Of a stretch of 64,000 bases of DNA, positions 221 to 6,117 are shown one piece after another. Location: assembly GCA_006383075.2 (NCBI GenBank), contig SMNH02000003.1, positions 488,496 to 552,495 on the forward strand, given 5' to 3'. The position numbers were made by a program, and so were the translations under genes. Position 1 is the first letter of the stretch. Every line of letters starts with the position of its first letter. Origin of the DNA: Kordia sp. TARA_039_SRF. GTDB lineage: Bacteria > Bacteroidota > Bacteroidia > Flavobacteriales > Flavobacteriaceae. The notes under the pieces were generated by a model, which saw only the letters and a program-made list of their open reading frames with translations, was not told the origin of the DNA and did no database searches.

Positions 221-250
221 AAAAAAAGCGCTCAATTTCTTGAACGCTTT
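221..250 (-). terminator. Intrinsic terminator of the rtcB/tRNA-like unit
   Basis: On the minus strand a ten-pair stem (AAAGCGTTCA with TGAGCGCTTT, one mismatch, six-base loop) is followed by a run of T. No other convincing minus-strand terminator lies between the end of the SDR-like gene (674) and this point. The tRNA-like genes are therefore probably inside the protein operon's transcript. Confidence 0.7.
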
Positions 251-295
251 ACTGATTGTATAATTTTAGTGTTATTTCATAGTTTATTTCACTCT

Positions 296-355
296 TAAAA
301 ATCTACATAAAGCGTCTGTTTTCGACAAAACGGTTCTACCATTCCGCGATTTTTA
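296..355 (-). ncRNA. Short tRNA-like fold (third element)
   Basis: On the minus strand a perfect seven-pair acceptor-like stem (TAAAAAT with ATTTTTA) encloses 46 bases. Inside are a D-arm-like hairpin with a ten-base loop containing GG (GCGG/CCGT stem) and a four-pair arm with a seven-base loop (TGTC/GACG). It is about 12 bases too short for a full cloverleaf, so an arm is missing. It lies on the same strand as the two tRNA-like genes, before the common terminator. It may be a decayed tRNA gene or a small tRNA-mimic RNA. The acceptor stem is purely A-T, so chance folding is possible. Confidence 0.3.
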
Positions 356-490
356 TCCTGACTTTTCAGGGGGATTGAGGCTATATGTACATAGTTTTTT
401 GTCATTAGTGTCGCAAATATGTGATTTTTAAGTTATTTCTTCCAAATTATCTATCCTATTTATATTGATTTTAAAGAGTTTAAAATCAGC

Positions 491-562
491 AACGGTAGGC
501 GAGACTCGAACCCGCACCCCATGAGTGACGGTCATGTACTCTTCCAGTTGAGCTACTACCGC
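491..562 (-). tRNA. tRNA-like gene 1 (anticodon-position GTC, C33)
   Basis: A complete cloverleaf can be drawn: acceptor GCGGTAG/CTACCGT with a terminal G-U pair, D stem GCTC/GAGT with GG in the loop, perfect five-pair anticodon stem CATGA/TCATG, four-base variable loop, T stem GCGGG/CTCGC with loop TTCGAGT. The anticodon loop is CCGTCAC, giving GTC at positions 34-36 (Asp), but base 33, almost always U, is C. The discriminator would be U instead of the G expected of tRNA-Asp. No CCA is encoded, but that is also true of the normal tRNA-Leu in this window. Folding is intact while decoding features are not. It lies between the second tRNA-like gene and the terminator at 221-250. Confidence 0.65.
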
Positions 563-589
563 TGCCTTTTTTAACTTTCTTTAATTTTG

Positions 590-662
590 AACAGCAGGCG
601 AGACTCGAACCCGCAACTCCCTTCCTGCTGAGAAGGTGCTCTTCCAATTGAACTACTGCTGT
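590..662 (-). tRNA. tRNA-like gene 2 (anticodon-position AGC, C33)
   Basis: A full cloverleaf is visible: acceptor ACAGCAG/CTGCTGT, D stem GTTC/GAGC with GG in the loop, perfect anticodon stem CCTTC/GAAGG, T stem GCGGG/CTCGC with loop TTCGAGT. The loop TCAGCAG puts AGC (Ala) at 34-36 with C at 33. The acceptor lacks the G3-U70 pair that marks bacterial tRNA-Ala, and the discriminator would be U. Its T arm is identical to that of gene 1 and its D loop nearly so, suggesting duplication. Its 5' end is only 12 bases from the stop codon of the SDR-like gene, on the same strand, so it is probably cut out of the operon mRNA. Confidence 0.65.
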
Positions 663-673
663 TATACTTTTGT

Positions 674-4029: not shown

Positions 4030-4092
4030 TTTTTAATTTTTTAAAAGACTATTTTGCACATCTTTTCACCTAAAGTGTTTCTAGTTTTAATT

Positions 4093-5493
4093 TTAGTAAC
4101 GTTCATTTTTTTTCTTTCTTTTCCTACGCTTCCAAGGCGCATTTTTACTTACGTCACCTGCCATAATGCATCCAAATGGCATGACTTCATCAATTACTTC
4201 TCCCAATCCGAAGTGTTCCATTTGTGCACGAACGGTTGCGGCATTTTTGTAGGCAGAAGGTAATTCGGTAATGTCAATTTCGTTAGAAAAGAAACGTACG
4301 TCTAAGCCTTCAGTTTCTGCTTCAAAGATTTCTTGAAAAGTTCCCGTTTTACTTTTTCGATGTTGCGTTCTGCTTACATTTCTTCCAGCTCCGTGTGGTG
4401 CAAAGCCTAAGTTGGTTTTTGTGGTTTTTCCTTCCACAATCAACACAGGTTCTGACATGTTTAACGGAATTAATCGCGGTCCCGTAATGTCTGGCATAAA
4501 CTTTTTGTCCAATGGCGTAGCTCCTTTGGCATGGTAAAACAAATCGCCCTCTTTAAAGACAAAGTTATGTTCATTCCAGTATCGGTCTTCTTTCTCAATT
4601 CCCAATGCTGACAAGGTTGCGTCGTGAATGACTTCATGATTCTTTTTTGTCCATTTTCGCACGATTTGTAACGCTTCCCAATAGTTTTGACCTTCTTCTG
4701 TATCAAAAGGAATCCACGCGTTCTGTTTTAAGGTTTCTGGCGATAATTCTCTTCGGAATTGTTCTGCGACTTTCATTCCTTTTTTGTACAAATTCGCACC
4801 AAAACCTCTACTCCCATGATGCGTTACCATCATCGTATTCCCTGTTTTTTTAGACGTTCCCACAAATAAGAAATGATTTCCATCGCCTTGTGTACCTAAA
4901 TGAGAGCGCGCCGCTTGAATACATTTTTGATCGTTTAAAAAGTAGTTCGCTTCAATTTCTGCCAATAAGTCCATCGGAAATCTAAATTGTGCTTCTCGTG
5001 ATCTTCCGCCAGGTCCAAAATGCGTAACACTATGTGCTGCATTTAATACTTCTTGCGGATGCGCATTTCCAAAATCGGTTAACATCACAGAACAACAAAT
5101 ATCGGCACTATGCATTCCTGGATGAATGGCATTTTTTGCTACAGCGACTCCTCCAACAGGAATTACGCCGGTATGTCCTGTAGGGCACGCATCTGGCATA
5201 ATAGCTCCGTTAACTAATGTTGGTGTGCGCATCAAAGTATTCATTGTATTGATAACACTCGCTACGTTTTCTGTTTCTATCTCGTTTTCGGCTTCAATAT
5301 TGATAGCAAATTCAATAGGTTTTTCGTGCAAAGCAATTTCTGGAGCAGATTTGAACTGTTCCAAATACACGAGCATATCTTCATGTGATAGTTGATTTTC
5401 ATTGATATGCGCAATTGCTTCTTTAAACCATTTTTTAGGTGTAAAACCTAAATCGATTAACGTATGTCCGTTGATTTGAATATGTTCTTTCAT
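4093..5493 (-). CDS. rtcB: RNA-splicing ligase RtcB
   Basis: 466 aa. RtcB joins RNA ends bearing 2',3'-cyclic phosphate or 3'-phosphate to 5'-OH ends, using GTP and Mn2+ through a GMP-histidine intermediate. Visible landmarks are [11 protein letters not shown] (100-109), the metal ligands in HSADICCS (128-135), GTQGDGNHF (200-208), HHGSRGFG (225-232) and [10 protein letters not shown] with the guanylylated His near 367. The C-terminus extends into a very basic tail (KRRKRKKK) not typical of short RtcBs. No archease or rtcA lies nearby. It is the first gene of the leftward unit, after a 327-base spacer holding a candidate promoter and direct-repeat operator. It could repair tRNA or rRNA cut by ribotoxins. 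Confidence 0.95.
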
Positions 5494-5573
5494 CTGTTCC
5501 TTTTTTTAATCGTTAGAAGGAATGTGTCATCAATATTGAAAAAGTAGGTTACAAGATATTGCTTTTTAATGAA

Positions 5574-5601
5574 CTCCGCTGACTCCAAATGTTCAGCGGA
5601 G
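5574..5601. terminator. Strong hairpin between the S24-like gene and rtcB
   Basis: A perfect nine-pair inverted repeat (CTCCGCTGA with TCAGCGGAG, ten-base loop) lies in the leader before rtcB. There is no U-run on either side, so it is a weak terminator candidate. It could equally be an mRNA-leader structure for rtcB or a stop for the S24-like gene transcript. Confidence 0.4.
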
Positions 5602-5643
5602 CTTGACTACTTTGTCATATAGAAATGACGTTATTTATAATTC

Positions 5644-5737
5644 CGATACAAATATTTTAAATTACTACGCAGTTATTTTGCGCAGTTGTCTTTACATTTT
5701 ATAAACTTTATTAATTTGATGATTTTCAAATACTTAA
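5644..5737 (-). promoter_or_regulatory. rtcB promoter region with direct-repeat operator
   Basis: On the minus strand there is, in order, an 18-base string shared exactly with the window edge (5737-5720), a direct repeat TGCGC/TGCGT with 13-base period (5684-5680 and 5671-5667), and AATATTTG (56-49 of 5600s), resembling the -7 box TAnnTTTG. The repeat overlaps the expected -33 position. Its twin is found at 6224-6241 beside the WYL regulator gene, which makes that regulator the likely ligand. Promoter strength and sign of control are unknown. Confidence 0.45.
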
Positions 5738-5820
5738 ATAAAAAATAATCTATGATATTTTATGTGTTTAAAATGAAAAGTAGTATTGTGAAATGCGATT
5801 TTAAAAAAAGTGAAGAATGT

Positions 5821-6117
5821 CTATGACATCGGTAATATTTCAATTACTTTGCCATATACATTTTTTGTCCATCCGTTAATTCTTCCACGATTGTTTCCTA
5901 TTAACAATCCGCGTTTTTGGTTTTTTCCTTTCACTAAATGTGTAAAAACATTTCCGCGAACTTTACAAAAAACGATATCACCAACTTCGCAATCTTCCCA
6001 AGAAATAGGTTGCAACTTTACAGGCTGCTTTGATTTTAAAATAGGCAACATAGAATTACCAGGTTCTTTTGAAATGATGGTTTGTCCATCAAGAAGTTTT
6101 TGAATTTTCCAATTCAT
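5821..6117 (-). CDS. Small S24/S26-fold protein (LexA/signal-peptidase-like), 98 aa
   Basis: 98 aa with the core of the S24/S26 serine peptidase fold: GNSMLPIL near residues 20-27 contains the nucleophile box SMxP, followed by VGDIVFCKVRG and LIGNN. There is no DNA-binding domain and no membrane segment, unlike LexA or signal peptidase. A Lys general base is possible at Lys53 or in the VKGKNQKR stretch, but I cannot fix it. The gene is leftward, divergent from the WYL regulator, and separated from rtcB by a 327-base spacer with its own promoter signals. It may be part of the control circuit or a peptidase acting on a neighbour. Confidence 0.75.
   Translation of the reverse strand: MNWKIQKLLDGQTIISKEPGNSMLPILKSKQPVKLQPISWEDCEVGDIVFCKVRGNVFTHLVKGKNQKRGLLIGNNRGRINGWTKNVYGKVIEILPMS

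Follow-up and report, generated by a model that had tools for sequence, protein, structure and literature searches.

The DNA analysed here (the window) is the whole 64,000-nt stretch G000:C3:488496-552495 of a Kordia genome (Flavobacteriaceae; 95.8% complete). Near its left edge lies an RNA-repair operon in which genes for a divergent RtcB RNA ligase and further proteins are followed by two tRNA-like genes, which we call tRNA mimics. Running leftward, the order is RtcB, a DUF434+DUF5616 protein, a DEDDh exonuclease, a 235-aa protein (U235), a zinc-ribbon protein of the short-chain dehydrogenase/reductase (SDR) fold and the two tRNA-like genes. The open reading frames (ORFs) from RtcB to the SDR are separated by 63, 14 and 17 nt and then overlap by 11 nt (U235/SDR), which confirms the packed leftward operon proposed when this DNA was first read from its letters only (the sequence-only reading). 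The features are as follows.

4093-5493, minus strand: divergent RtcB RNA ligase (Pfam RtcB, E 7.2e-38; motifs aligned to 4DWR/1UC2)
3319-4029, minus strand: DUF434 + DUF5616 protein (Pfam DUF5616, E 1.9e-52; DUF434, E 1.7e-15)
2756-3304, minus strand: DEDDh 3'-5' exonuclease (Pfam RNase_T, E 1.3e-19; PADLOC DEDDh)
2031-2738, minus strand: U235, 235-aa protein with a helical N-terminal part and a C-terminal CdiA-tip-like domain (BECR fold)
674-2041, minus strand: zinc-ribbon SDR-fold protein, ATG start, without the catalytic Tyr (Pfam adh_short, E 9.2e-22)
589-662, minus strand: tRNA mimic 1, anticodon AGC, loop TCAGCAG (C33) (ARAGORN; Rfam RF00005, 45.8 bits)
489-563, minus strand: tRNA mimic 2, anticodon GTC, loop CCGTCAC (C33) (ARAGORN; Rfam, 56.4 bits)
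295-405, minus strand: leader ORF 1, 36 codons (36 aa), with similar ORFs in 9/9 Kordia loci
225-250, minus strand: intrinsic terminator, past leader ORF 1

Both mimics exceed the Rfam tRNA gathering score (29 bits), and mimic 1 starts 11 nt past the SDR stop codon. In mimic 2 (489-563) the 7 pairs of the acceptor helix are continued by 4 further contiguous pairs. The two tRNA-like genes past the SDR and the strong intrinsic terminator were found as the sequence-only reading had them. A third, shorter tRNA-like fold that it placed at ~290-410 was not recovered as a tRNA by ARAGORN or Rfam; this stretch is the 36-codon ORF at 295-405. That reading also overlooked eight tRNA genes because the window ends before them. 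We refer to the mimics that adjoin the SDR as class I and to the tRNA array further on as class II.

The tRNA mimics are linked to the SDR gene. An adjacent tRNA-like gene is present in 72 of the 73 Bacteroidota SDR loci examined, within 760 nt past the stop codon in 63 and before a paralogue in nine. In the first 16 loci, ARAGORN placed a tRNA-like gene 3-310 nt past the SDR stop in 16/16 and within 30 nt in 12; broken tRNA-like copies occupy the gap in some of the loci beyond 30 nt. Of 43 further loci, 42 had the gene within 760 nt of the SDR stop and 37 had it within 30 nt. The exception, L143, has an inserted ORF between the two, and its tRNA-like copies begin 803 nt past the SDR stop. Fourteen additional loci comprised five with a tRNA-like gene 3-81 nt past the SDR stop and nine with a paralogous SDR (~55% identical). 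In all nine of the latter, the tRNA-like gene is situated exactly 11 nt before the first ATG, and the sequence just in front of it contains TAnnTTTG, which we take to be the Bacteroidetes -7 consensus; nothing near these nine paralogous genes matched our library of repair proteins. In the search of a third genus, 33 SDR match rows had received no locus, and 19 of these are not in the locus counts.

The sequence-only reading had tied the tRNA-like genes to rtcB. They go with the SDR instead, because three Kordia loci with Pnkp and Rnl1 and no RtcB match in the stretches read keep their mimics (L056, L057 and L059). The repair ligase is exchangeable, being either RtcB (own locus, L042, L052-L055, L058, L060 and L095) or Pnkp with Rnl1 (the three Kordia loci and L075-L079), and RlaP nucleotidyltransferases occur in many loci. 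Five loci with U235 and no SDR have no adjoining tRNA-like gene, a lone tRNA-Met lying ~7 kb off in L082; L084, with a weak U235 match (E 1.3e-4) and no tRNA, was excluded from this count. The locus itself is present in 9 of 11 Kordia genomes, and mimics follow the SDR in all nine loci read, so the earlier claim of an RNA-repair operon that keeps its own tRNA-like genes in orthologous loci holds. In L095, the SDR gene, two mimics and a 74-codon ORF are packed with gaps of only 8, 14 and 16 nt, which makes it very likely that SDR and mimics share a transcript. The transcript need not end at the tRNA-like genes, as had been supposed, since this ORF follows the mimics of L095.

The DUF5616 protein was found in 9/11 Kordia genomes and in 5/149 genomes sampled across the family, and the SDR (profile A3) in 6/395 genomes sampled over the phylum and in 3/78, 15/398 and 56/173 genomes of three single genera; own or centre genomes are counted within these figures. 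No match to the SDR was obtained among GenBank phage records at E 1e-40, two distant homologues were detected on IMG/VR contigs, and U235 had no match on IMG/VR contigs.

The linkage between SDR and mimics is firm in Bacteroidota and uncertain elsewhere because the Deinococcus, viral-contig and actinobacterial homologues gave a mixed outcome. On a Deinococcus plasmid, a tRNA-like gene is found 57 nt upstream of an SDR homologue (36% identity), and on a virus-collection contig (L113) such a gene lies 53 nt upstream of the SDR homologue on the opposite strand. Upstream of the Deinococcus homologue (L114 8700-8975), the tRNA-like gene resembles tRNA-Ala; by eye, the same stretch also holds a partial tRNA-like sequence and hairpins with 7-nt anticodon-like loops (CTCCAAC and CTGCTAA). 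A Streptomyces plasmid with an SDR homologue (L115) has no tRNA-like genes, and an upstream ORF on the opposite strand resembles, by eye, a trypsin-type protease.

We compared syntenic mimics, that is, mimics at equal distance (within 6 nt) from the SDR stop. Over 18 disjoint locus pairs (44 mimic pairs), 59/308 loop sites and 85/440 stem sites of the anticodon arm differed, as compared with 109/2495 sites of the tRNA body. For the whole arm this is 144/748, and a Fisher test on arm and body sites gives p ~1e-33, a value that ignores the dependence of neighbouring sites. In the 43 loci, mimic pairs with a body divergence of at most 0.10 differed at 26% of loop, 24% of stem and 5% of body sites, and 113 of the 248 pairs had different anticodons. 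Among pairs from the first 16 loci, the anticodon differed in 2/14 at a body cut of 0.10 and in 7/28 at 0.15. By contrast, class II control tRNAs differed at 2.8% of loop sites and carried a different anticodon in 1/153 pairs at 0.10 and 3/200 at 0.15. The body-matched close pairs behind these counts (248, 14, 28, 153 and 200) are not independent of each other. The sister loci L077 and L078 show 4 differences in 147 nt, all within two 7-nt anticodon loops, and in L132/L139 (offset 319) entire mimic arms differ despite an SDR four-fold-site divergence of 0.08.

The arm changes within limits. Standard pairs make up 524/580 of the anticodon stem pairs, a count favoured by the preference of ARAGORN for paired stems; 64 stem changes were two-sided with pairing kept, 42 were one-sided and 32 gained or lost pairing. 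Of the 116 unique mimics in the 43 loci, 72 have C and only 2 have G at position 36, and 74 have A at position 37, in loci with a GC content of 31-44% (mean 35.5%). The mimic anticodon loop is not random, and the arm is not free. As a side observation, the excess of C36 makes the mimic anticodons mostly ones for GNN codons, and in the Kordia class II stretches read ARAGORN reported no Gly or Val tRNA, and Ala in 2/9 loci.

Judged from their sequence, the class I mimics are probably not translation tRNAs, because U33 is often absent and because one conserved body bears differing anticodons. The 38 class I copies in the first 16 loci have T (23), C (8) or A (7) at base 33, so that 15/38 are not U; the C33 that the sequence-only reading took as a signature applies to both mimics of the window and is not general. 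In the 43 loci, 131 class I copies have T (68), C (39), A (16) or G (8), and 63/131 lack U33; this set leaves out 11 of the 142 copies within 760 nt, for which the ARAGORN anticodon was not three letters, and all copies beyond 760 nt. By contrast, U33 is present in 99/99 Kordia array tRNAs and 27/27 non-array tRNAs examined, and in 117/120 tRNAs further on over all first 16 loci.

The acceptor helix also sets the mimics apart. Of the three measures tried, contiguous extension separates them best, with at least 4 further contiguous pairs in 14/24 Kordia mimics vs 0/99 array tRNAs. An acceptor duplex of at least 10 pairs, found in 26/38 mimics, 29/120 array tRNAs and 9/17 housekeeping tRNAs, is a weak discriminator; the energy gained over 7 bp is a better separator (-6.1 kcal/mol for mimics vs -2.3 for array and -2.3 for housekeeping tRNAs). 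The absence of CCA was considered as a sign of a non-tRNA and rejected, since only 4/27 Kordia non-array tRNAs encode CCA.

The eight tRNA genes past the left edge of the window (G000:C3:487556-488205) are, in operon direction, Cys, Asp, Pro, Glu, Leu, Arg, Gln and His. Kordia arrays hold 4 to 20 tRNAs, and others occur in Tenacibaculum L042, L081 and L093. Identity of the own array tRNAs to the best-matching housekeeping tRNA is 64-75%, compared with 70-99% to their same-anticodon counterparts in sister species. Being clustered, having U33 and differing from the housekeeping set, these tRNAs have the makings of a stress tRNA array. Searches for an origin of the array in phage or plasmid gave partial tRNA-level matches only, none covering 80% of the query. 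The array tRNA-Leu(UAG) (G000:C3:487811-487884) is 74-75 nt long without the normal long variable arm and occurs in 8/9 Kordia arrays.

A short leader ORF and then an intrinsic terminator precede the array in 12/12 loci examined (the array start of L057 was set by hand). The T run of the terminator ends 2-22 nt before the first array tRNA in L053-L056, L059, L081 and L093, which leaves little room for an array promoter. A terminator lies within 30 nt upstream of 8/11 arrays vs 3/24 housekeeping tRNAs; this control excludes L057 and takes a broken Ser copy as the array start of L058. Of the 20 amino acids, 19 are used in the own leaders, which are 36 and 46 codons long. Amino-acid coverage was above chance (p<0.05) in 6/11 leaders, a hand-chosen and partly related set, and clearly not above chance in L042 (p=0.71) and L055_2 (p=0.60). 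A ribosome-stalling attenuator would be the natural reading of leader and terminator.

Some tRNA genes of class I and class II carry inserts of ~50 nt (TTCRAAATG...TAATC) in the T loop, always at the same position; the oriented coordinates are as follows.

L053 11239-11298
L054 16355-16415
L056 15265-15322
L058 13554-13610 and 13696-13755

A second insert, palindromic and resembling repetitive extragenic palindromic (REP) elements, is also found in T arms of L053, L054 and L057. The T-loop inserts may be a mobile element or an intron.

By sequence the SDR protein is a Rossmann-fold SDR in both Pfam and PDB profile searches; its AlphaFold model (predicted local distance difference test, pLDDT, 62.1) was too poor for a fold search. 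The catalytic Tyr of YxxxK is replaced by Thr365, invariant in 11/11 sequences and in 6/6 rows of a wider alignment, and the motifs CxxC...CxxC and HxHTNM(T/A)K are invariant in the SDR alignments. U235 and/or DUF5616 is encoded upstream of the SDR in 41/43 loci. The C-terminal domain of U235 matches a CdiA tip (PDB 6D7Y) by sequence profile (E 1.8e-4), and its AlphaFold model (pLDDT 87.9) has 6D7Y as the top Foldseek match (probability 1.00, template-modelling score 0.83 on the target, E 0.015). A KHxxR motif is invariant in 18/18 and aligned to the 6D7Y toxin, whose H3372 could not be mapped to it. That toxin is tabulated as a BECR-fold protein targeting tRNA-Gln and tRNA-Pro (PMC9086364), and a P. 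aeruginosa CdiA-CT is called a tRNase (PMC12791740). Ends left by metal-independent RNases are of the kind that RtcB can seal (PMC7824862).

The RtcB protein retains the motifs DI.C, GNHF, HGSRG and HGAGR in the alignment to 4DWR/1UC2; which RtcB residues are catalytic is an assignment that we assume. The claim that the system is independent of Ro holds for the own genome, in which TROVE/Ro60 (PF05731) is absent, but 3 of the 11 Kordia genomes have a TROVE/Ro60 gene ~5 kb beyond the array together with Band-7 genes (L107-L109, in G155, G156 and G150); in L109 there are also Rnl2 and an RNase H-like gene. Protein families that were identified in one relative as Rnl2 and Band-7 are encoded downstream of the array in five Kordia relatives, and the stretch read downstream of the own array does not contain them. 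At E 0.1, no part of L043, L054 or L095 matched the YrlA model (RF02553); the mimics of these three loci match tRNA. Weak YrlA-like RNA matches were seen near the TROVE genes of L107-L109 (28-39.5 bits, best E 1.9e-5, with a gathering score of 69). RtcA and the CARF regulator RtcR had no Pfam match among seven window proteins, the only part of the genome searched for them.

Two further genes lie on the upstream side of the operon.

5821-6117, minus strand: 98-aa protein without a Pfam match, with a relative in 6/13 other loci compared
6280-7293, plus strand: WYL-WCX regulator, divergently transcribed (Pfam WYL, E 8.9e-13; WCX, E 8.2e-16)

From its position, the WYL-WCX protein probably regulates the operon. 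In 16/43 SDR loci, a relative of a 676-aa protein (L054 12710-14740) with a weak likeness to the receptor L domain (E 2.2e-4) is encoded downstream of the SDR stop.

The sequence itself gives strong support to the anatomy of this island, to the SDR linkage, to a body that is better conserved than the arm and to the succession of leader, terminator and array; its function we infer. The core would consist of the DUF434/DUF5616 protein, the tRNase-like BECR-domain protein and the zinc-ribbon pseudo-SDR, and would make one to seven tRNA mimics, probably from one transcript. The SDR most likely grips the conserved tRNA body, and the mimics would present an anticodon arm that evolution quickly replaces. 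We tentatively favour the idea, at somewhat less than an even chance, that the mimics are bait or sensor tRNAs for the anticodon nucleases of phages or rival bacteria, held by the SDR in a tRNA-damage island. A fast-changing anticodon arm would fit a decoy or sensor. Cut mimics and cut cellular tRNAs may be trimmed and resealed by the exchangeable enzymes (RtcB, or Pnkp and Rnl1, with RlaP). In a shortage of real tRNAs, the ribosome might stall in the leader ORF and transcription might then pass the terminator into the reserve tRNA array. Bringing all of this together, the island is possibly an RNA-protein defence or surveillance system, a claim that we make with more reserve: a dead zinc-ribbon SDR would show tandem mimics whose arms are swapped like cassettes against tRNA-cutting toxins, repair enzymes would reseal the baits, and leader peptides with nearly all twenty amino acids would sense the loss of any tRNA and release the reserve array.

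Several observations weigh against this interpretation. In the disjoint pairs the mean arm rate (0.19) stays below the SDR four-fold-site divergence (0.26), and free drift of the anticodon arm is possible. Arm divergence exceeds the SDR four-fold value in 64/232 syntenic pairs; positive or diversifying selection on the arms is suggested and not proven because the arm rate is about the SDR four-fold rate. In a first comparison by hand-made types, mimic loops differed only slightly more than bodies (0.204 vs 0.160; array tRNAs, 0.051 vs 0.098). The Kordia GTC mimic is present with its anticodon unchanged in 9/9 loci read, and loops without U33 are a poor imitation of real anticodon loops. The ARAGORN preference noted above works in favour of the stem-pairing count, some class I copies are broken by T-arm insertions, and three actinobacterial plasmid SDR homologues have no adjacent tRNA-like gene in view, nor does L112, a virus-collection contig whose view excludes the side upstream of the SDR homologue. 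For the attenuator, terminators also stand close before the three housekeeping tRNAs counted above, and complementarity between leader and terminator beats shuffles (p<0.05) in only 2/12 second and 2/5 first leaders, the first leaders of L054 and L058 being excluded as the search pattern missed their stem.

The main rival explanation is that the mimics are a structural RNA partner, a Y-RNA-like scaffold or regulator of the SDR, of which only the body matters while the arm drifts. We consider this unlikely, if still a serious contender. A conserved body with an arm changing at about the neutral rate is what it would predict, the linkage tracks the SDR and not the repair enzymes, and Y RNAs are known to associate with Ro and PNPase, YrlA having a tRNA-like domain (PMC7790460). 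On the other hand, free drift would hardly give the loop composition observed (C36 in 72/116, G36 in 2 and A37 in 74 at a mean GC of 35.5%), a scaffold does not need many copies with differing arms per locus, and the mimics of the three loci tested did not match the YrlA model. That the mimics are ordinary divergent tRNAs held in reserve and switched on in translational stress, as in the Anabaena trn operon, seems improbable. The two mimics of the window score well as tRNAs (56.4 and 45.8 bits), and the array further on resembles such a reserve. However, the absence of U33 in 63/131 copies, the near-identical bodies with different anticodons (113/248 close pairs) and the contiguous acceptor extension (14/24 Kordia mimics vs 0/99 array tRNAs) all speak against it.

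The resemblance of U235 to a CdiA tRNase domain, next to the SDR and mimics, would also suit an RNA antitoxin, in which the mimics restrain the BECR-domain U235 in the style of a type III toxin-antitoxin. This is very improbable given that U235 lacks adjacent mimics in 5/5 SDR-less loci, and that mimics occur with no U235 match in L093, beside the paralogous SDR and in 5 loci with only DUF5616 within 1.5 kb upstream. We give slightly less credence still to the idea that the mimics are relics that have stayed next to the SDR by chance, being tRNA genes in decay or sites where mobile elements insert. The copies broken by T-arm insertions would be explained, but the body is conserved (109/2495) against an SDR four-fold-site divergence of 0.26, stem changes are compensatory, and the linkage holds in 72/73 loci.

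If the mimics are baits, bacteria would possess a library against tRNA-cutting toxins that can be renewed, and the arm sequences would tell which anticodons are being attacked. RNA ligation and a tRNase-like protein are brought together in this island with a reserve array of tRNAs and what is likely a leader-peptide switch. The question of what bacterial RtcB repairs becomes directly testable in culturable marine bacteria. We found no matching system in which a fixed tRNA body with a fast-changing anticodon arm is tied to one protein family, and no description of SDR-linked tRNA mimics with exchangeable arms in our searches of the open literature (subscription journals lay mostly outside the search); an earlier mention of some of these gene neighbourhoods is possible. 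The novelty is limited to the SDR-mimic module, the repair enzymes and the tRNA array being of known kinds.

SDR5C1 (HSD10) of human mitochondrial RNase P is an SDR-fold protein that serves as a tRNA-binding platform and keeps its active site. The Kordia SDR shares the fold and, presumably, the binding of RNA; unlike SDR5C1, it lacks the catalytic Tyr and has a zinc ribbon. The Salmonella rsr-yrlBA-rtcBA operon is regulated by damaged tRNAs, and its YrlA RNA has a tRNA-like domain and has been suggested as a possible competitive inhibitor of anticodon nuclease (PMC7790460). Both systems place RtcB beside RNAs with a tRNA-like domain. However, the Kordia operon has no match to Ro, RtcA or YrlA, has a WYL protein in place of RtcR, and has several mimics with changing anticodon arms adjoining an SDR gene. 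In Anabaena, the repressor TrcR keeps a silent 26-tRNA trn operon and rtcB shut off until translational stress sets in (PMC10272220). Both systems have a large set of extra tRNAs and rtcB, whereas here the array is physically linked to the repair genes and stands behind a leader ORF and terminator, and hypervariable mimics are added. Jumbo phages carry tRNA sets with RtcB or Rnl ligases, Pnkp and RlaP against tRNA-cutting immunity (PMC7824862), a provision of tRNAs and of ligases, kinases and RlaP like that seen here, except that the Kordia system is a bacterial chromosomal island. The Salmonella, Anabaena and jumbo-phage systems each cover one side of this island.

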